The notes under the pieces are model-generated. The model did no database searches and was not told the DNA's origin. It saw only the letters and a program-made list of their open reading frames with translations. The translations under genes and the position numbers were made by a program. A DNA stretch of 64,000 bases from Fusobacterium sp. (GTDB lineage: Bacteria; Cyanobacteriota; Vampirovibrionia; Gastranaerophilales; Gastranaerophilaceae): positions 174,854 to 238,853 of the forward strand of contig JAMPIJ010000001.1 of NCBI GenBank assembly GCA_023662905.1, given 5' to 3'. Shown here in pieces: positions 24,132-33,981 of the stretch (position 1 is its first letter; each line of letters starts with the position of its first letter).

Positions 24132-24162
24132 AAAAAAAAACGGGCCTTTCGGCCCGTTTTTC
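24132..24162. terminator. Intrinsic terminator, hook gene and LysM gene
   Basis: ACGGGCC, TTTC, GGCCCGT with A and T runs either side, between convergent genes. A close variant lies at 31251-31275 beside the second LysM gene. Confidence 0.88.
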
Positions 24163-25256
24163 TATGCTGCTAATTTAATTTGTTGATCTGGATAGATTAA
24201 ATCCGGATTTTTGATTTGCGGGTTCAATCTAATGAATTCTTTAACCTGTTCAAGAATGTGGGCGTTTGTAATTGTAGCCCCAGGGTTTGCTTTTTGGAGT
24301 TCATGTTTTGCTATATTCCATAAGCAGTCACCTTTAACAACTTTGTAATCTTTGATTGAAACTTGATTTAACGCGCCGCCGAAGATGTTGTTTGTTGGTG
24401 GATTTTGCTGAGCTGGTTGCGCTGGTTGAGCCGGAGCCGGTTGTTGTGGCGCGGCTGGCTGTGCAGGTTGCGTTGTAGCTGTAGAATCCGCTGGTGCCAC
24501 CGGAGCGGTTGGCGCATTAGCTGTAGAATCTGCCGGTGCGACAGGAGCGACCTGTGTTGAATCAGTTGGAACTGTCGCGGTCGAATCAGCAGGTACTGGC
24601 GCAACTACAGGAGCAGTTGCAGTTGAATCAGGAGCTGCGACTTGAGTTGAATCGTTTTGTGCAGCAGGAGCTGCTGCCGCTTCTGGTGTTTCTTCTGCAG
24701 TTTCTGTTGAATCCGCAGCAGCTGTGGTTTCTTCTTCCGGTTCAGTGGTTTCTGCTTTGTCTGCTGCGATAGGTTCTGCGGCTTCGTCCTCATTGCCTAG
24801 AAGCGCGTATGCTGTAACTCCGGCAATTGTTCCTGTAGTTCCGCCGATAGCCCAATTTCTTGTAAAATTATCTGTATGGGTTTTGTCTAATCCTGTTCTT
24901 GCCTGTTTGGTTATAGTATTACCTCTAGCATTAAGGTATTCCATTTTGCCTGTTTTTACATTGACTTGTGAGGCTACGGTCTTTCCGTTATCATACTCCG
25001 TTACTGTTTGGAAAACACTTCCTTTTTGTCTTTGTACTGTAACTCGGGTTGGATTTGCTTCACCCTCTACAAATCGTGATGTAACAGTTTTGGTTCTTCT
25101 AAACGGGTTATATTTTCCGACTTGTTTTTCGTATGTTTGGATTGTTTGTCCATTTTTTTCAGCTGTCTGAACTAATTTACCTGCATTTTTTCTTGTTGCT
25201 TTGAATGCTTTGTTTGCAGTGTTAAATAATTTTGTTAATTTTCCAACTCCAGCCAT
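24162..25256 (-). CDS. LysM-domain protein with Pro/Ala/Thr repeat linker
   Basis: 364 aa. There is no classical signal peptide; an Ala/Gly-rich hydrophobic segment (about residues 135-152) may anchor it. Residues about 165-290 are low-complexity repeats (APADSTA units), consistent with a wall-spanning linker. The C-terminal LysM-like domain begins YKVVKGDCLWNIAKHEL and ends LNPQIKNPDLIYPDQQI, implying peptidoglycan binding. It is paralogous to the 31.3 kb gene, sharing NNIFGG before LysM, the same 5' leader and the same type of terminator. A G:C tract sits 61 nt upstream of the start. Confidence 0.8.
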   Translation of the reverse strand: MAGVGKLTKLFNTANKAFKATRKNAGKLVQTAEKNGQTIQTYEKQVGKYNPFRRTKTVTSRFVEGEANPTRVTVQRQKGSVFQTVTEYDNGKTVASQVNVKTGKMEYLNARGNTITKQARTGLDKTHTDNFTRNWAIGGTTGTIAGVTAYALLGNEDEAAEPIAADKAETTEPEEETTAAADSTETAEETPEAAAAPAAQNDSTQVAAPDSTATAPVVAPVPADSTATVPTDSTQVAPVAPADSTANAPTAPVAPADSTATTQPAQPAAPQQPAPAQPAQPAQQNPPTNNIFGGALNQVSIKDYKVVKGDCLWNIAKHELQKANPGATITNAHILEQVKEFIRLNPQIKNPDLIYPDQQIKLAA

Positions 25257-25316
25257 AAGTAATATCCCCTTTCGTTTTCCTTTGAAATAAATCCCCTTGT
25301 ATATCTATTAAGTAGC

Positions 25317-25328
25317 GGGGGGGGGGGG
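25317..25328. repeat. G:C tract, 12 bp, upstream of LysM gene
   Basis: Twelve consecutive C on the coding (-) strand, 61 nt before the LysM start. Because it lies upstream of the start codon, length change would affect transcription or the leader rather than the reading frame. On the + strand it is followed by TTGCTTAACAGG, resembling the sequence after pilin G tracts. Confidence 0.85.
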
Positions 25329-25400
25329 TTGCTTAACAGGTTCCTTTTATTACAAAATGTAAATTTCGTAAATAAGGTGTATATATTCTATAAATAATGT

Positions 25401-25880
25401 TTATTTACGAATTGTGATTCTTTCTAATGCGCGGACAAAACGGGTAGGTAAATTTTCTGTTTTGGCGGTGATTGAATCAACTAAAATCGTTACGCAGCCT
25501 AAACGTTTTCCGCATAAAATATCCGTTAGTGGTCTATCGCCGACAAACGCTGTTTCTGCCGCGTTCAAACCGTGTTCTTCCATAAACGCTTTTGCAACCT
25601 TAATATCGGGTTTGTGCGCTGCAAAAACGCAAGGAAAATCCGTGCAAGCCTTAACCTTTTCGATATAAGCCTTGTTTTCGTTGTTGGAAACAATTGCGAT
25701 GAAAAAGTCTTTTCGGACGTCGTTGAGCCATTGGTGGGTTTCGTCGCTGTAACATCCTGATTTTGACGCCATAATTGTGCTGTCTAAATCGAAAAGGAGG
25801 TTTTTTATCCCGCGACTTTTGAGTTCCGCAAGGTCTATTGCGTAAATATTTTCAAGGTTATAATCAGGCTTCAGAATCAT
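25401..25880 (-). CDS. yqeG: HAD-superfamily phosphatase, YqeG type
   Basis: 159 aa. Motif I is DLDSTI (nucleophile and acid Asp), motif II is VSNNE, motif III is KPD and motif IV is VGDRPLTDI. The family acts on small phosphorylated substrates. Its start overlaps the U32 gene by 17 nt, so the two are one operon. Confidence 0.88.
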   Translation of the reverse strand: MILKPDYNLENIYAIDLAELKSRGIKNLLFDLDSTIMASKSGCYSDETHQWLNDVRKDFFIAIVSNNENKAYIEKVKACTDFPCVFAAHKPDIKVAKAFMEEHGLNAAETAFVGDRPLTDILCGKRLGCVTILVDSITAKTENLPTRFVRALERITIRK

Positions 25881-27102
25881 TTTTTATTCCTATCGTACGA
25901 GCCATTGCGTATTTGTAATCTTTCGGCGCGGTTGAGAACTTCATGTAAACTTCTGCGTTTGTGTTGCCGACATCAAGTGTCAAACCGTTTTCGTCCTGAA
26001 TTTCAAGAACTTTGGTTGTAAATTGTTCGTCAGGAGTGATGATTTCGATTTCGTCACCGACAAGCATTTTGTTTTTGACTTTTACAAAGTACCAATCATC
26101 TTTCTTATTCCAGAATTCGCATAAGAAGTCTGCGCCGGCAAGGCCTTTGGAAATGTCGTAGCTGTAGCTTTCGCCGTTGTTGTTGCCGAGGGCAAAGCCT
26201 GTTGTATAGCCGCGGTTGCCGACTTTTTTGAGTTCTAAGAAATATTTGTGTAAGTCGTCAGTTTTACCGGCTAAGATTTCGTCAATTGCTTGGCGGTAAG
26301 CTTTTGCGACTGCTGAAACGTAGTATAAACTTTTTGTTCTGCCCTCGACTTTGAGTGAATCAATTCCCGCATCGATTAATTGCGGCAGGTATTCAACAAG
26401 ACAGAGGTCTTTCGGGCTGAGAATATGTGAGCCGCGGCCGTCTTGGTTGATTTCTAAGTATTCGTCAGGACGGGTGCTTTCAACGAGTTTGTAACTCCAG
26501 CGGCATGGTTGTGAACAGTTGCCGTGGTTGGCTTTGCGTTCACCTTTTGAGAAGTAGTCGCTAAGCAGGCATCTGCCGGAGAATGAAACGCATTGCGCGC
26601 CGTGAACGAAGCTTTCAAGTTCAACATCTGGAACCTGACGGCGGATTTCTGCAATATCTTTTATCGCGAGTTCGCGGGCTAAGATTACGCGGCTTGCGCC
26701 GAGGTCACGCCAGAATTTAACGCTTTCGTAGTTGAGCGTATTTGTTTGCGTGCTGATATGAATGTCAGTGTTTGGCATTCTTTTTCTAACCATATTAAAT
26801 ACGCCGAAGTCGCTTAAAATTACGGCATCCGGTTTTGCGTCGTTGAATACATCAATTGCTTCTTCAAGCTGTCTGATATCGTTGTTGAACGCAAAAATAT
26901 TCAACGTTAAGTAAGCTTTAGCGCCGAGTTCGTGCGCTTTTGCGATTGCGTCTTTTATGTTATCAAGCGTAATAAGTTCGCCTTTTCTCATCGCGCGCAG
27001 GCTGAAATCAACCACGCCCAAATAAACTGCGTCCGCACCGTAGCGGATTGCGTATTCTAATTTTTCAATATTGCCCGCAGGCATCAAAAGTTCTAGTCCC
27101 AT
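25864..27102 (-). CDS. Peptidase U32 family / tRNA hydroxylation TrhP-like protein
   Basis: 412 aa. TIM-barrel N-terminus (MGLELLMPAGNIEKLEYAIR) and the U32 signature with its cysteines (ESFVHGAQCVSFSGRCLLSD, then NHGNCSQPCRW), which bind an iron-sulfur cluster. Members labelled as collagenases are in several bacteria tRNA (TrhP) or rRNA (RlhA) hydroxylation proteins. This length and the C-terminal beta domain fit TrhP/YegQ-like members. Confidence 0.85.
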   Translation of the reverse strand: MGLELLMPAGNIEKLEYAIRYGADAVYLGVVDFSLRAMRKGELITLDNIKDAIAKAHELGAKAYLTLNIFAFNNDIRQLEEAIDVFNDAKPDAVILSDFGVFNMVRKRMPNTDIHISTQTNTLNYESVKFWRDLGASRVILARELAIKDIAEIRRQVPDVELESFVHGAQCVSFSGRCLLSDYFSKGERKANHGNCSQPCRWSYKLVESTRPDEYLEINQDGRGSHILSPKDLCLVEYLPQLIDAGIDSLKVEGRTKSLYYVSAVAKAYRQAIDEILAGKTDDLHKYFLELKKVGNRGYTTGFALGNNNGESYSYDISKGLAGADFLCEFWNKKDDWYFVKVKNKMLVGDEIEIITPDEQFTTKVLEIQDENGLTLDVGNTNAEVYMKFSTAPKDYKYAMARTIGIKNDSEA

Positions 27103-27208
27103 AGTTGTATATTACCCGAAAGGAGATAAATAATCAACCGGATAGGTGATGTGATTTTTCGATAATTATAGACAATAGAAATGTAGAGAGTTAATAAACG
27201 AGGTTAGA

Positions 27209-27340
27209 ATGCAAACAATTCAAAACGCAACGGTTACTATTAAAGAAGCATGGGCTTATCAGCCGCCGGTAATTCATACGTGGTTTTTGGCGAGTTCGGC
27301 TGCGCTAATGGTTATGTTGGCTGTTTTTTGCGTTGCATAA
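27209..27340 (+). CDS. 43-aa single-pass membrane peptide
   Basis: Starts MQTIQNATVTIKEAW with a GAGGT site 4 nt upstream. Residues about 24-42 are hydrophobic (WFLASSAALMVMLAVFCVA) and end the peptide. It is followed within 20 nt by a strong terminator, supporting a real transcription unit in this otherwise gene-free stretch. Function unknown. Confidence 0.55.
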   Translation: MQTIQNATVTIKEAWAYQPPVIHTWFLASSAALMVMLAVFCVA

Positions 27341-27360
27341 GCTTCTTATAAAATAAGATT

Positions 27361-27393
27361 GTGAGGGGAGAACTTTATAGTTCTCCCCTTTTG
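27361..27393 (+). terminator. Intrinsic terminator after small membrane peptide
   Basis: GGGGAGAACT, TTAT, AGTTCTCCCC, then TTTT. Confidence 0.85.
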
Positions 27394-27493
27394 TCATCTG
27401 AATGGATGGTTTTTCTTTTGTTTACACCTTTTAAATGATGTGATTAATGCTGAATATTATAGAATAGAATTGTGGTAGATTTTGGTAAAAATA

Positions 27494-28321
27494 ATGAGCG
27501 AAAATTTTGATTTCACATCGTACAATAATATAAAAAGACTTCCGGAAAACGAACTTGTTGAGTTATGGAACAGATACTTCCAAAACAAGTCTGACAAAGC
27601 GGTGAGAGATGCGCTCATTTGTCAATATATTTATCTTATTAGATACGTTGTAGGACGTATTAAAATGACTTTACCTAATGGCGTTTCTGCAGAAGATATC
27701 GCTGGCTACGGTGTTGAAGGTTTGATTAACGCGATAGAACGTTTTTCTGTTGATAAAAATACTAAGTTTGAAACCTACGCGTTAATAAGAATTCGCGGTA
27801 CTATTTTAGACAGAATCCGTTCAGAAGATTTCTTGCCTAGAAGTGTCCGCTCGAAGTTGAAAAAGATTAAACAGGCTCAGGAAGATTTAAAGCAAGAACT
27901 TGGCAGAATGCCTACCTCAAGAGAGGTCGCTGAGTATTTGGATATGGAAGTCGATAAGGTTATCCAGCTTATGTCAGAAGACGTTACAGTTTCGTCTATC
28001 TATGACAAGCAAGGTTCTTCCGATGATAGTTTAGAAGTAATCGATACTATTCAGGATGAACACGGCAGAACACCTTATGAAGTTGCGGAAGAAAAGAATG
28101 TTAAGCAGGAATTGGAGAACGCTTTGAAAAGACTTCCTGAACGTGAACGTAATATTATGGTTCTTTACTATCAAGAAAACATGACGCTCAAAGAAATCGG
28201 TCAAATGCTTGGTATGTCTGAATCCCGTGTTTGCCAGCTTCACGCACAAAGTATTGTTAAACTCAAAAATATTCTTAACGAAAAACGTTCGCAAAGACTT
28301 CAAAAAAATATTATCGGTTGA
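27494..28321 (+). CDS. fliA: RNA polymerase sigma factor, FliA/WhiG family
   Basis: 275 aa from the ATG at 27494. Region 2 has ICQYIYLIRYVVGRIKMTLP and GYGVEGLINAIERF; region 3 has LGRMPTSREVAEYLDM; region 4 has LPERERNIMVLYYQENMT and the helix-turn-helix LKEIGQMLGMSESRVCQLHA. This is the sigma-28 type that reads flagellar late genes in many bacteria. The nearby fliJ, fliK-like and hook genes fit, but a different regulon is possible in a lineage with few flagellar genes. Confidence 0.88.
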   Translation: MSENFDFTSYNNIKRLPENELVELWNRYFQNKSDKAVRDALICQYIYLIRYVVGRIKMTLPNGVSAEDIAGYGVEGLINAIERFSVDKNTKFETYALIRIRGTILDRIRSEDFLPRSVRSKLKKIKQAQEDLKQELGRMPTSREVAEYLDMEVDKVIQLMSEDVTVSSIYDKQGSSDDSLEVIDTIQDEHGRTPYEVAEEKNVKQELENALKRLPERERNIMVLYYQENMTLKEIGQMLGMSESRVCQLHAQSIVKLKNILNEKRSQRLQKNIIG

Positions 28322-28832
28322 GGGAGTATTCCTCAATAATAAAGTCTACGCGGTTGTTTAAGGCCTGATGGCCCTCTGTTTTGTTTCTTGTTGGCATAAT
28401 TGAGCCGAAACCTATCGGGAAAATCTGGTTAATCAGGCAGGTTTCTATGTCTGTAAGATAGTTTGTAATTTCGCCGGCTCTTAGTGAGGTTCTGGAAATT
28501 CTATCAACCTGAGTTTTTCCGACAGTAGTGTGGCATAGGATAAACCACTTACGGCCGCTGAATTTCATGATTTCTGCCATTACTTTCAAAAGCATTTTGC
28601 CGCTGTCGTTAAGTTCTCCGCATTCGTCGAACATAAGTTCATCCTTTATGCTTATTACAAATCCGGTCGGAGTATAGCCGTAATGAATATATTCTTTTAT
28701 TGGCTCAAGCTGCGTTTTTGCCTGAGTTTCTATTGTCTTTACAGGCGTGACAGAACCTACAGGACAAACGCACTGCGCTCCTGATATGGACAAATGTATT
28801 GCTAGTAGTGTTAAAATTAGTCTTTTAATCAT
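28311..28832 (-). CDS. OmpA/MotB-like periplasmic domain protein
   Basis: 173 aa with a signal peptide (MIKRLILTLLAIHLSISGAQ). The mature part fits an OmpA C-terminal domain: VISIKDELMFDECGELNDSG opening, a central helix, SRTSLRAGEITNYL, and a final NNRVDFII. This fold binds peptidoglycan. There is no beta-barrel and no second domain. It overlaps the sigma gene by 11 nt in convergent orientation. Confidence 0.75.
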   Translation of the reverse strand: MIKRLILTLLAIHLSISGAQCVCPVGSVTPVKTIETQAKTQLEPIKEYIHYGYTPTGFVISIKDELMFDECGELNDSGKMLLKVMAEIMKFSGRKWFILCHTTVGKTQVDRISRTSLRAGEITNYLTDIETCLINQIFPIGFGSIMPTRNKTEGHQALNNRVDFIIEEYSLNR

Positions 28833-28883
28833 GTTTATTTATATTATCGGGCAAAATATGTTCTTATTCATTACTCTTTCGGG

Positions 28884-30098
28884 TTAGGGTTTTAATACTG
28901 AAAGAACAAAATCTTCATCTGTAAAATATTTGTTTGCGCATTCACGCAAATCTTCTGCTGTTACAGCCTGAATTTTCTTTTTAATTTCTTCCAGATAGTC
29001 AAAACCTAAACGTAGAATTCCGTAGTGCGCAAGAAGCGATGCTTGACGCAGGTTTGTTTCCAGTGAGAACGCCCATTTGCCAAAAAGATTGTTTTTAGCG
29101 TCTGAAAGTTCTTTTTCCGGAACAAGTTCAACTTTGATTTTGTCGATTTCTTCTTTGAAGCCTGCAAGCGCGGTTTCGATATTTTTCGGTTCTGTCGCGA
29201 TGTAAATTCTGAAGTTTGCGGCAGAAAGCGATGTGTCGTAACTGCTTCTTACAACATAAGCAAGTCCTTTTTTGTCGCGAAGTTCGCAGAAAAGTCTTGA
29301 TGAAAGTCCTGATGCACCTAAGATTATGTTCAAGAGTTTTAACGCGGCTAAATCTTTGTCGCCGTATGTTGGAACAAGCCAGCCTTTAATAATATGCGCC
29401 TGATTAAGGTCTTCTTTTTCCTGTTCAAGAACGATAGTTTCTGTGAGCGGTGATTTGTGGAAGATTACAACTTCTTTTGAATTATCTTCTAAATCGCCAA
29501 ACGCTTCTTCTGTGCGTTCAAACGCCGCGTTGAAATCAACATCGCCGACAATACTAATGACTTTGCGGCTGTTTTCGCGGATTTCTTTGTACGCGTTTAT
29601 GATATCTTCTTTTGTGATTTTACCAAGGTTTTCAAGGATAATTGTTTCGGTGTTTCCGTAAGGGTGGTTCGCGTAGATGTTTTTGAAATACGCTTCCAGA
29701 GCCTTGTTTCTTGGTGAATCCATTGCAACTTGAATTTCGCCCTCGTATTTAACAATTTCTTTTTGATAGTCGTCAAAAGTAGTGTTTTTCACGATATCTG
29801 TCAGAAGTTCGACAGCTTTGTCGAAATCTTCGTTAAGGCAAACGAATTTAAAACTTAAATAATCAGATTTGAGTTCGCAGCTTAATTCAATTGCGTATTC
29901 GTCAAGTTCTCTTGCAAGTTGTTCTGCAGAGCGTGTTTTTGTGCCTTGCATAAATAATCTTGTCATAACAACATAAAGCCCCGGAATTGTTTCTTCCTGA
30001 TTTAGTGATAGATTGAAGCAAAAAGCTGTTCTCGGGGTGTTCTTGCTTTGTTTATATACAAATTGTGTTCCGTTTTTTAAATCTTTAATTTCTCTCAT
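28884..30098 (-). CDS. M16-family peptidase-like protein, zinc motif lost
   Basis: 404 aa, two M16 half-domains. The usual zinc motif HxxEH, expected near residues 35-50, is replaced by YVVMTRLFMQGT, while the surrounding fold (LNQEETIPGL, TRSAEQLARELDEYAIELSC) and the C-terminal domain (YGDKDLAALKLLNIILGASG, SSRLFCELRDKKGLAYVVRS) are kept. It is therefore probably not catalytic alone, like the non-catalytic subunit of heterodimeric M16 enzymes. No active M16 partner is in the window. Confidence 0.85.
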   Translation of the reverse strand: MREIKDLKNGTQFVYKQSKNTPRTAFCFNLSLNQEETIPGLYVVMTRLFMQGTKTRSAEQLARELDEYAIELSCELKSDYLSFKFVCLNEDFDKAVELLTDIVKNTTFDDYQKEIVKYEGEIQVAMDSPRNKALEAYFKNIYANHPYGNTETIILENLGKITKEDIINAYKEIRENSRKVISIVGDVDFNAAFERTEEAFGDLEDNSKEVVIFHKSPLTETIVLEQEKEDLNQAHIIKGWLVPTYGDKDLAALKLLNIILGASGLSSRLFCELRDKKGLAYVVRSSYDTSLSAANFRIYIATEPKNIETALAGFKEEIDKIKVELVPEKELSDAKNNLFGKWAFSLETNLRQASLLAHYGILRLGFDYLEEIKKKIQAVTAEDLRECANKYFTDEDFVLSVLKP

Positions 30099-30160
30099 AA
30101 TACAATAATAGCACCAACAAAAAAGTTGGTGCTATTTTAATATAATTTTACATTATAGTT

Positions 30161-30982
30161 TTATGAATGGTCTGCTAAAACAGCATCAGCCGCGTTGGTT
30201 GCAGGTTTAATCGTGCTTCCGTAGATTAACACCGGAAATACATCGTTAGTTTTCATCGGGTCAATAGTGCAGGCACCTTTAAGGGTGTTGCCGCTGTAGT
30301 AATCTTCGCCGATGATCTTGTTTGTACCATCTTCCCATTTGTATTTTAAGTAACCGGTATTAGTATCTGATTGGCAGTTTATTAGAGCGTTTGGTGGCTC
30401 CATACCGTTTACGTCAATGTATGCAAGGCACGGTGATAGTTTAGAACAGCCATTGTCAGCGAGTTTTTCTTTGTCCGGAAAAATAATATAAGCACCGTCG
30501 CGGGTTTCAAAAATGGCACCGCGATAATCTTCATCAGTATCAAATGCTACACCTGTGGATGTTTCAGAACCGGCTCTTTCGATTGCTGCGGTTGTAGAAG
30601 CTGAATACATAGCATCGGAGGTGTAAGATAGTAATTTGCCCGCAAAAGCATGTGAGGTCTTATCAAGTTTTTTGATATCCATCGTTTTTGTAAGCAGGTT
30701 TTCTATTGAAAGTTGTGCGTTAAATGGCGGTTCACCTGATTTTGAATAGTTAACAATTCTGTCAACATCAGAAGTGTCAAAATCGAGTTTTGCATGAGCG
30801 ACTCTTAGTGTTTGTGCAAGAACAGCGTATTGTTTTTGCATCATAATTTTATGAGATCTGCCGCCGGTGTTCGCTAAAAGCTGTGGAATCGTAATCGCAG
30901 AAACAATACCGATAATTGTCAACGCAATCATAATTTCGGCCATCGTGAAGGCGCTAAATGCTAAGTGCTTTTTATTAAACAT
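30161..30982 (-). CDS. Prepilin-like protein without G tract
   Basis: 273 aa from the ATG at 30982, preceded by GGAGAGGA. The leader is MFNKKHLAFSA, then FTMAEIMIALTIIGIVSA. It shares the anchor helix with the variable family, but the rest differs: there is no lectin-like C-terminus, no CVKR, and DVNGMEPPN replaces DLNGSKGPN. It may be a constant minor pilin or pseudopilin that assembles with the variable ones. A promoter with a 17-nt spacer (31016-31044) lies upstream, of a different type from the family promoter. Confidence 0.85.
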   Translation of the reverse strand: MFNKKHLAFSAFTMAEIMIALTIIGIVSAITIPQLLANTGGRSHKIMMQKQYAVLAQTLRVAHAKLDFDTSDVDRIVNYSKSGEPPFNAQLSIENLLTKTMDIKKLDKTSHAFAGKLLSYTSDAMYSASTTAAIERAGSETSTGVAFDTDEDYRGAIFETRDGAYIIFPDKEKLADNGCSKLSPCLAYIDVNGMEPPNALINCQSDTNTGYLKYKWEDGTNKIIGEDYYSGNTLKGACTIDPMKTNDVFPVLIYGSTIKPATNAADAVLADHS

Positions 30983-31015
30983 AAAAATCCTCTCCGTTTT
31001 CCAATATACTTTATA

Positions 31016-31044
31016 ATTATACCATTCACGGGAGTGTTTGTAAA
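31016..31044 (-). promoter_or_regulatory. Promoter of the constant prepilin gene
   Basis: On the - strand TTTACA, 17 nt, TATAAT. It lacks the AAACATG element of the variable-pilin promoters, suggesting separate control. Confidence 0.65.
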
Positions 31045-31112
31045 GTTTATGTAACAAAAAGGCAAGATAAACAGTTTTTATGTTTTTATATATATGTGAA
31101 AGGTGTGTGTTT

Positions 31113-31250
31113 ATGTTTAGTGAAAAGTTTATGCGTTATTTAATGAATTATCAGAAATCTGAGTTTACTCCTGCGTCAACTCAGAAAGAAATCCGTTTTA
31201 AACATAAAGGCGGAAAAGCCGTACGTGTCACCGTTGAGGTTAAGAAATAA
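31113..31250 (+). CDS. 45-aa basic small protein
   Basis: Begins MFSEKFMRYLMNYQKSEFTP and ends KHKGGKAVRVTVEVKK. GAAAGGTGTG lies about 10 nt upstream and a terminator follows at once. It is basic and without a membrane segment. Function unknown; the start and coding status are supported mainly by context. Confidence 0.5.
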   Translation: MFSEKFMRYLMNYQKSEFTPASTQKEIRFKHKGGKAVRVTVEVKK

Positions 31251-31275
31251 AAAAAAACGAGCCTTTCGGCCCGTT
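31251..31275. terminator. Intrinsic terminator, small protein and second LysM gene
   Basis: ACGAGCC, TTTC, GGCCCGT with A and T runs; one base in the stem does not pair. Nearly the same as 24132-24162. Confidence 0.75.
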
Positions 31276-32298
31276 TTATGCACACATTTTAATTTTTTGT
31301 TCTGGGTAAATTAGATCCGGATTTTTGATTTGCGGGTTTAATCTAATGAATTCTTTTACTTGAGCGAGAATTTGTCCATTCGAAATTGTTTTGTCTGGAT
31401 TCGCTTCTTGCAGGTAATGTTTCGCTATATTCCATAAACATTCATTTTTTACGACATCGTGAGATTCTGTTGTAATTTCATTAATAGTTCCGCCAAAGAT
31501 ATTGTTATCGACTTGTGGTTCTTCATTTTGTTCAGCAGGTTCTTCAAACTCATCTTGTTGTTCTGCCGGTTGATTAGCCTTTGTTATTTCAAATCCGTCT
31601 TCTGTTCTGGTTATTTTATCTCCAGGGTGTAGTTGAACTTTTTGTTCTCCAACTTGCATTGTTAATTCGCCAGTTTCGCTAGTCAATTCTGGTACTGTCA
31701 CGCTTTGGCCGACTTGTATGTTTTCTAGTTCGTTACAGAATTTTTCTACCGCGGTTTTATCAGCCTTAACTTCTGGTGTTTCTTCTTTTACCTGTTCAGG
31801 TTGTTCTTCTGGAACCTCTTCTGCTTTTTCAGCTTGCAATGCTTCTTGTTTTTGTTGTTGTCGGAGTTCATTGAACGTTACATCTTTGCCGCCATGTTTG
31901 CAGGCTGGTAAATTTCCGCATACAAGATCTTTTTTTGTAAGATATGCTGCTGTACCTAATGCCAGTGCGCCGATAGGCCCTCCGAGTATAAAACCTGCTA
32001 AACCTCCCACAGCAGCGTCTATGTATTTTGAGCACTTCAAGGCGTGTTCTTCAGATTCCTTATGGGTGTCGCTTGTTGCTCCTTTATAACATTCATAAGC
32101 CGCCAATCCGCAAGCACCAAACATACTTGTAAAGCTAGCAACCTCTGTAGTTTTGAATATGCAGTTTGCGATTTTTTTGCCTGTACTCAATTTTCCACCG
32201 GCGGGTGCTGTAAACGGTGTTTGTAATGCGTGTGCTTTTTTCGGAAGATAACTGATACCTTTCCACGCTAATTTTGCTAATTTCCCTAATCCTGCCAT
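31276..32298 (-). CDS. LysM-domain protein, paralogue of 24.2 kb gene
   Basis: 340 aa. The N-terminus MAGLGKLAKLAW matches the MAGVGKLTKLF of its paralogue. A Gly/Ala-rich hydrophobic region is at about residues 93-115. Acidic Gln/Glu/Pro-rich linkers replace the Pro/Ala/Thr repeats of the paralogue. The C-terminus has NNIFGG and a LysM-like domain (CLWNIAKHYL, LNPQIKNPDLIYPEQ), nearly identical to the other. Duplication therefore kept both ends and diverged the middle. A 16-bp G:C tract lies 55 nt upstream. Confidence 0.8.
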   Translation of the reverse strand: MAGLGKLAKLAWKGISYLPKKAHALQTPFTAPAGGKLSTGKKIANCIFKTTEVASFTSMFGACGLAAYECYKGATSDTHKESEEHALKCSKYIDAAVGGLAGFILGGPIGALALGTAAYLTKKDLVCGNLPACKHGGKDVTFNELRQQQKQEALQAEKAEEVPEEQPEQVKEETPEVKADKTAVEKFCNELENIQVGQSVTVPELTSETGELTMQVGEQKVQLHPGDKITRTEDGFEITKANQPAEQQDEFEEPAEQNEEPQVDNNIFGGTINEITTESHDVVKNECLWNIAKHYLQEANPDKTISNGQILAQVKEFIRLNPQIKNPDLIYPEQKIKMCA

Positions 32299-32352
32299 AA
32301 TAATATCCCCTTTCGTTTTCTGTATCCCCTTTGTACTTATATAAAGTTCAGC

Positions 32353-32368
32353 GGGGGGGGGGGGGGGG
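32353..32368. repeat. G:C tract, 16 bp, upstream of second LysM gene
   Basis: Sixteen consecutive C on the coding strand, 55 nt before the start. On the + strand ATTGCTTAACCG follows, as at the 25.3 kb tract. On the coding strand the downstream leader includes TTTATATAAG, a possible -10. Confidence 0.85.
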
Positions 32369-32391
32369 ATTGCTTAACCGAGGGGTAAATG

Positions 32392-33981
32392 TTAAGAAAG
32401 TGTTACAATTATTTCTTTTTCACATTTATAAATTACATACCCTAAAGGCGCTTTTGGCGGCTTTTTGAGGTGTTTGCGCTGTGTGTAAATTACGCCGACT
32501 TTTGAAGAGAGCTTTGCGCTTGAAAATTCTTTTGCAAGTTTTGCACACTCAAAAATAAGTTCGTCAGACGGTTCTGCGCATTTTAATAACACGTGCGAAC
32601 CCGCGCAGCCGTGCGTGTGAAACCAGTAATCCTCGTCTTTTGAGAGTTTTGATACTATAAAATCGTTCTGTTTGTTATTACGGCCGATGAAAACTTTGTA
32701 GCCGAGAATTTCTTTTTCAAGAAGTTCTGTTGCAGGCGTTGTTTTTTTGCTCCCCTGAAAAATCGGAAGAATTTCATTTTTTATGTCGAGAAGTTCTTGA
32801 TAATTCTGCGCGGAATCAAGCGCATAGAGCGTTTGTTCATAATAATTTATCTGAATTTCGTTTTCTTCAAACATCTCGTTGATTTTTTCGATGGATTTTT
32901 TTGATTTGTTGTAACGCTTGTAGAACTTATTTGCATTGTCTTTTAGCGTCAAAAGCGGGTCGAGTTCAATCGTAATATTGCGGTCGTGTTCCCAGTCGAA
33001 AACTTCGATTGATGGCGTGAAATCTTTGCCGTTATAAAGGTTCGCCATAATCAGGTCGCCCCACAGGCGGTATTCAAATCCTTTTTCTTCGCGCTCAAGC
33101 TGTTCAAGCATAAGCGTTTCATTCTTTTTATGTTTGGAAAGCTTTTTGTTAATAAGCGTTTTGAGTTCCTGTGTGATGGCTTTAATTTTATTTTTCTCAA
33201 TGTGATAGGAAAAATATTCGTCTATCATTTCGTTAACGGTAGAGAATGTTCGCGCCGCAGGCAGAAGTTCTGAAAATAGTGAAAATTCGCTGTAATCATC
33301 CGTGATTGCCGGTGAAATTCCTCGCAACTCGACAAAATCTTTGAGTTTTGAAACCGGCTGACCCTTGCATTGCGCCGCGAAAGCCTTTGAGAAAAAGAAA
33401 AAGTTTTCTAACGGCTCGTTGATTTCTCCTTGAATGTCGCAAATATCCAACTTATTTTGTTTTGGTGGGTAAATATAAGGTAAAGTTCCGGCCATTTCGC
33501 GTTCGCGGCTTTTTTCAGAACCCACATTGTGCGCACAGCCGATAATTATGTTTGTATCAGCGTTGTAAAGCACAATATTTGAATGTTTGCCCATCAGTTC
33601 AATTGCAAGGCAAAGTTCGATTTTTTCCTGCAATTCGTTAAATGTTTCAACGTAAATTTCAAAGATTCTTTCGTGATTTGGCTGGTTAACTTTGACAATC
33701 TTTGCGTTTTCGAGGTATTTGCGTAGTTGCATACAAAACATCGGCGGTTTGAGCGGAATCTCCAGAAATCTTCGTGCCTCGGTTTCTTTTGTCACAAAAC
33801 AAATATGGTGAAACTGAGGGTTAATATTTATATAGAATTTTCTTGTTTCGCCGTTGTTGCGAAGTGCAAAAAGAACCTCGCGTCTTGTCGGCTGTTGAAT
33901 CTTCTGGATTCGACTGCCGGTGAAAAACTCGCGGTTTTCTTCGATAAAGGCTTTCATTGTCAAACTGTCAAATGTAATCAT
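32392..33981 (-). CDS. rqcH: Ribosome quality control factor RqcH (NFACT family)
   Basis: 529 aa. Bacterial Rqc2/NEMF homologue that adds C-terminal alanine tails to stalled nascent chains on 50S subunits. The NFACT-N domain includes FVTKETEARRFLEIPLKPP and AIELMGKHSNIVLYNAD. A central helical/coiled-coil region (about residues 275-390) precedes the NFACT-R domain with DEDYWFHTHGCAGSHVLLK. Older annotation calls this family fibronectin-binding protein. Confidence 0.92.
   Translation of the reverse strand: MITFDSLTMKAFIEENREFFTGSRIQKIQQPTRREVLFALRNNGETRKFYININPQFHHICFVTKETEARRFLEIPLKPPMFCMQLRKYLENAKIVKVNQPNHERIFEIYVETFNELQEKIELCLAIELMGKHSNIVLYNADTNIIIGCAHNVGSEKSREREMAGTLPYIYPPKQNKLDICDIQGEINEPLENFFFFSKAFAAQCKGQPVSKLKDFVELRGISPAITDDYSEFSLFSELLPAARTFSTVNEMIDEYFSYHIEKNKIKAITQELKTLINKKLSKHKKNETLMLEQLEREEKGFEYRLWGDLIMANLYNGKDFTPSIEVFDWEHDRNITIELDPLLTLKDNANKFYKRYNKSKKSIEKINEMFEENEIQINYYEQTLYALDSAQNYQELLDIKNEILPIFQGSKKTTPATELLEKEILGYKVFIGRNNKQNDFIVSKLSKDEDYWFHTHGCAGSHVLLKCAEPSDELIFECAKLAKEFSSAKLSSKVGVIYTQRKHLKKPPKAPLGYVIYKCEKEIIVTLS

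Follow-up and report, generated by a model that had tools for sequence, protein, structure and literature searches.

Two genes for LysM proteins lie on the minus strand of this stretch, each preceded by a long run of C, and the question is whether the length of these runs could set how strongly the genes are transcribed. The window (the whole stretch of 64,000 nucleotides that was analysed) is G000:C11:174854-238853, where G000 denotes the source genome, a Candidatus Gastranaerophilus MAG of 1.74 Mb in 54 contigs. The same elements occur in close relatives, namely Candidatus Gastranaerophilus phascolarctosicola and other Gastranaerophilales bins, and the comparison was made with one assembly for each sister species (G001 to G006). 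Every tract length was taken from these assemblies, and homopolymer lengths are approximate in short-read MAGs.

The two LysM genes and their upstream C tracts

The features of the two loci are as follows.

24132..24160, minus: terminator of LysM gene 1, hairpin CGGGCC TTTC GGCCCG
24162..25256, minus: LysM gene 1, 364 aa, PF01476 at residues 304-362
25260..25278, minus: leader and ribosome-binding region AAAACGAAAGGGGATATTA of gene 1, exact copy
25303-25298, minus: TATACA, near ACTTAATA, -10 candidate
25306..25313, minus: ACTTAATA, conserved AT-rich element downstream of C12 (promoter alignment), likewise a -10 candidate
25317..25328, minus (G12 on plus): C12 tract in the putative promoter region of gene 1, also C12 in the syntenic gene of G004
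25329..25337, minus: GTTAAGCAA box abutting C12, on the G strand TTGCTTAAC, an instance of a motif also found 3' of pilin and other coding tracts
25365..25411, minus: 11-bp inverted repeat with halves TTCGTAAATAA and TTATTTACGAA, ahead of gene 1, read off the sequence without statistics
31249..31278, minus: terminator of LysM gene 2, same hairpin with one mismatch
31276..32298, minus: LysM gene 2, 340 aa, PF01476 at residues 280-337
32301..32319, minus: leader and ribosome-binding region AAAACGAAAGGGGATATTA of gene 2, exact copy
32341-32336, minus: TATAAG, overlapped by ACTTTATA, -10 candidate
32340..32347, minus: ACTTTATA, conserved AT-rich element downstream of C16 (promoter alignment)
32353..32368, minus (G16 on plus): C16 tract in the putative promoter region of gene 2, NN + C8 in the G004 orthologue
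32369..32378, minus: GTTAAGCAAT box abutting C16 (promoter alignment, tract-flank motif matrix)
32387..32395, minus: TTAACATTT box, lying 17-18 bp before TTAAGC in the majority of the promoters described below and absent beside 78 other (mostly coding) tracts

A count of the sequence bore out the C12 and C16 runs that the earlier note had reported on the coding strand, and both lie outside any reading frame as it had stated. The tracts end 60 and 54 nt before the start codons (ATG at 25256 and 32298); the 61 and 55 nt given previously include an offset. Nine G/C runs of at least 10 are present in the window against 0.013 expected by chance, all with G on the plus strand, and runs of 7-9 G/C are lacking there. 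Both LysM tracts are thus homopolymers far above chance length, situated upstream of a gene and outside its frame. The leader AAAACGAAAGGGGATATTA, said to be common to the two genes, is exact at both and occurs nowhere else in the window (0.02 expected), and the core of the common terminator, GGCCTTTCGGCC, was found in the window only behind the LysM genes (24143-24154; 31260-31271 with one mismatch). A search of the window against Rfam returned one tRNA only.

The peptidoglycan-binding LysM domain (PF01476) is C-terminal in both proteins, with E values of 1.5e-6 and 3e-6 and scores of 28.5 and 27.5 bits against a Pfam cut-off of 20.9. The two proteins share 56% identity over 108 aa, at the LysM end only. 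They had been called wall-binding, a description for which this domain is the sole basis; each has one internal hydrophobic stretch and no evident signal peptide at the N-terminus, so that their surface location is unproven. A third LysM-like gene, L064 (G000:C11:146041), carries a C10 tract inside its coding frame, and this tract is interrupted in G002 and G003. The window also holds, between the two LysM genes (27482-28321), a gene judged by eye to encode a FliA/WhiG-like sigma factor.

A candidate promoter class across the genus

Relatives of the LysM genes are present in five of the six sister species, and a tract precedes every one whose upstream region is intact: C12 and C16 in G000, C12 and NN + C8 in G004, C14 in G002 and C14 in G003. 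Gene 1 therefore has the same C12 in G000 and G004. For copies in G001, G002 and G006, the start of the contig cuts the sequence off at the tract or immediately after it. A scan for GTTAAGCAA(N)C7 showed that the same element also stands before non-LysM genes of the genus, and under a stricter scan six of the seven genomes had it, at nine places in all, one of them gapped in the assembly, while G005 had none. The class thus serves a number of unrelated gene families besides LysM genes, and across five sister species the position of the tract is kept before orthologous and unrelated genes alike, with lengths from C12 to C16.

Eleven promoters were aligned, eight of them fully readable (two from G000, six from G001-G004 and G006) and three, from G004, gapped within the tract. 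The elements follow one another in a fixed order: TTAACAT box, GTTAAGCAA(T), C12-16, GC..ACTTWATA, leader and ATG. The consensus of the eleven is TTtnTTAACAttt....CnGTTAAGCAAt - Cn - GC..ACTTtATAt...tatAaGGG...GAAaGGGgATAtt..ATG, and the distance from GTTAAGC to ACTTWATA is 24, 24, 26, 26, 27, 27, 29 or 31 bp. The TTAACAT box was found at 0 of 78 other tracts, most of them coding. One member of the class (L148) has a terminator, a hairpin followed by a T run, whose end is about 50 bp upstream of the box, and its ATG comes 36 nt after the tract; its promoter is thereby confined to the tract region, with little room elsewhere. Several sister promoters have dyad halves related to the inverted repeat of gene 1, which is a possible operator.

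A promoter scan detected no sigma-70-type TTGACA/TATAAT pair on either side of the LysM tracts, and a terminator scan around them was likewise negative; the pilin genes, in contrast, show TTGACA-N17-CATAAT by eye. Either ACTTWATA or TATACA/TATAAG could supply the -10 element, and the choice between these candidates is ambiguous. GTTAAGC was rejected as a -35 hexamer since every intact copy has too long a spacer between it and ACTTWATA, a FliA-type promoter receives no support from the -10 sequence, and GTTAAGC is too variable for an integron attC. Viral contigs contained no copy of the promoter element. Matches to GTTAAGCAAT-C7 in the JAHJQK and VGSF assemblies were discarded: they belong to an interspersed repeat that is unrelated and continues differently downstream. 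This repeat, TTTTGTTAAGCAATCCCCCCCACCCTATCCCTCCCC, found in two unrelated MAGs (loci L141, L143, L153, L159, L162, L168, L171, L172 and others), overlaps the search pattern by chance.

The earlier suggestion that a change in tract length could alter promoter spacing agrees with this arrangement, as the tract has conserved boxes on one side and an AT-rich, -10-like element on the other, is outside reading frames and stands at a position kept across species. Any length change would accordingly alter the spacing. The best reading of the two LysM genes, which we consider rather probable, is that they have phase-variable promoters composed of box, C-stretch and -10. The poly-C would occupy the -35 region or the spacer between the upstream boxes and the AT-rich -10 region; the boxes, TTAACAT and GTTAAGCAAT, would perhaps form an activator site, and ACTTWATA with the following bases would provide the -10 region, transcription presumably starting downstream of the tract. 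Slippage would add or remove C residues and so shift the boxes relative to the -10 region, and tract length would set transcription to one among several levels.

Were the tract instead part of the 5' UTR, the C run could pair with the GGGG of the leader and the ribosome-binding site and tune translation post-transcriptionally. Two GGGG elements are indeed conserved downstream of the tract, and their partner in the minimum-free-energy folds is the C run. However, dinucleotide-shuffled sequences form more stable folds than either leader (z +2.3 and +1.4), 12 C are already enough to pair with all of the 4-8 G so that changes of 1 nt should matter little, and no promoter-like site upstream was found by the scan. 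We regard control of translation as quite improbable.

G/C runs in the rest of the genome

The genome holds about 110 G/C runs (112 of at least 9 G, 96 of at least 11), of which 101 tract contexts were collected. Most lie in the leaders of prepilin-like genes (ATG...GGGGGG...FTMAEILLSLTIIGVVAAITLPSL) and mostly encode Gly, while others are spread over the reading frames of various genes, usually as Gly stretches close to the N-terminus; a clearly non-coding, upstream position is seen for just three, the two LysM tracts and L039. The LysM genes had been taken to mark a second class of surface protein subject to homopolymer switching. They are not simply a second class, given that numerous other genes have tracts, usually as in-frame Gly runs. 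At L039 (G000:C18:7828), a C11 tract immediately precedes what is likely the promoter of a gene for 78 aa and lacks the GTTAAG box. Within the window, seven G10-G16 tracts fall in prepilin-like leader codons (18566, 35580, 39105, 44191, 49033, 53430 and 61570), three of the seven in frame.

With one assembly per species, the instability of the tracts can be judged only indirectly. The tract leaves the gene in frame in 26 of 59 pilins and out of frame in 33, and the corresponding figures for other tract genes are about 7 and 11, with reading frames otherwise intact beyond the tract. Such a mixture is what frequent slippage is expected to produce and is the best in-silico support for unstable runs. 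It suggests that in this genome such runs frequently change in length, which applies to both LysM tracts by extension only.

The orientation of the tracts was related to GC skew in sampled stretches of contigs C11, C22, C33 and C44, counting only stretches with an absolute skew above 0.03. G lies on the strand of positive skew for 30 of 34 tracts (p = 6e-6), and long reading frames in this sample are split about evenly between the strands. The exceptions are C22:168131, C22:239890, C11:12192 and C33:3755. Throughout the right part of C11 the tracts have G on the plus strand, including four whose genes are on the minus strand (the two LysM genes, L062 and L064); these antisense cases weigh most, because pilin genes may be co-oriented with replication. 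Tract orientation thus follows the replication strand, and the LysM tracts consequently read as C on the coding strand.

A motif, CTNANCMG, follows the G run by 2-6 nt in pilin, other coding and non-coding contexts. Of 24 non-pilin tracts, 8 reach at least 8 bits with a matrix built from the pilin tracts, compared with 0.5% of random positions (Mann-Whitney p = 1e-8). The motif is read in different frames (L040, L075), lies antisense within frames (L062, L064), accompanies both LysM tracts and also follows tracts in G004. Since the GTTAAGCAAT box is CTNANCMG on the other strand, it may be part of the tract rather than of a regulator site; the GTTAAG box, too, occurs beside coding tracts. One may imagine a portable switch, consisting of a G run on the leading strand plus CTNANCMG, that has been inserted into leaders of prepilins, further frames and promoters and is made, moved or maintained by a dedicated mechanism such as a site-specific factor or inter-run recombination, a proposal that we hold to be doubtful. 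Where tracts are interrupted (the L064 family in G002 and G003, the L075 family in G001), the motif stays; it can therefore also be kept by the encoded protein, and dedicated machinery is not claimed.

The pilin tracts join a few 5' modules to a few 3' modules (one 5' flank occurs with four 3' flanks), as if the pilin genes recombined at the G run. In another genus of the family (G138, loci L232-L248), tracts are followed by small TGA-loop hairpins: CGAC TGA GTCG, CGGC TGA GCCG and CTGCC TGA GGCAG. No tract of at least 11 G occurs anywhere in the genome of G005, of the same genus as the source, compared with 72-117 for the remaining five sister species; this may reflect loss or the trimming of poly-G reads.

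The abundance of about 110 tracts, the flank motif that the LysM tracts have in common with pilin tracts, the mosaic joining of modules and the orientation set by the replication strand would all fit a genome that is prone to making and spreading G/C runs, in which the LysM tracts were mutational passengers, copied with their flanks by recombination and devoid of regulatory effect. Against this, the same promoter position is occupied genus-wide before LysM and other families with promoter-specific boxes kept, and no tract-less promoter of the class was found among those retrieved, all of them via the tract or LysM. Passenger status appears unlikely to us. Artefacts of assembly, through poly-G sequencing noise, were considered as well. 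Contigs of the genome often end at a G tract (C4:24, C15:10, C20:29, C22:28, C26:16, C44:13, C53:12), so assembly breaks there, and NN stands inside tracts of G004. Yet fixed positions and flanks recur across independent assemblies of several species, runs of intermediate length are missing from the window, and coding tracts give in-frame Gly in about 40% of genes; an artefactual origin is very improbable.

Comparison with known phase-variable promoters

If the promoters of the LysM genes are phase-variable as proposed, the C run would probably turn the genes up and down at random in the manner of the Bordetella fimbriae promoters. A few pathogens are known to switch genes through C tracts in promoters, and here a candidate class extends through a genus of an uncultured gut lineage in the cyanobacterial phylum; the literature searched contained no description of phase variation in these gut bacteria. 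The roughly 110 tracts amount to a repertoire similar in size to the 115 phase-variable genes reported for Neisseria meningitidis (PMC5084427). Envelope switching in a common gut commensal thereby becomes testable with existing metagenomic reads.

Several systems in N. meningitidis offer parallels. The opc gene for an envelope protein has a variable poly-C in its promoter region (PMC3960869), although it is a single gene for an outer-membrane adhesin with no genus-wide promoter family. At nadA, repeat length changes the spacing of distal promoter elements (PMC2791445). The -10/-35 spacer of porA is reported to vary by repeat length; porA has recognisable -35 and -10 regions, whereas the scan found the standard pair missing at the LysM promoters.

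The closest likeness is to fim2, fim3 and fimX of Bordetella, in which a fim box is combined with a C-stretch whose length changes the transcript level (PMC1891110). As in the LysM class, where the -10 is putative, a coding-strand poly-C lies between a conserved box and the -10, and several paralogues each have their own copy. The fim tract ranges from C7 to C19 and spacing is thought to matter. From this match in the order of box, C run and AT-rich element, and from the resemblance to opc, it is proposed that the length of the C run sets transcription by moving the upstream boxes relative to the -10, the activator role and the -10 being putative here. The fim genes encode fimbrial subunits, while the genes concerned here are LysM and others of a gut melainabacterium with a putative activator. 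With boxes of TTAACAT and GTTAAGCAAT, the likeness to fim is one of design and not of ancestry, and no sequence relation is claimed.
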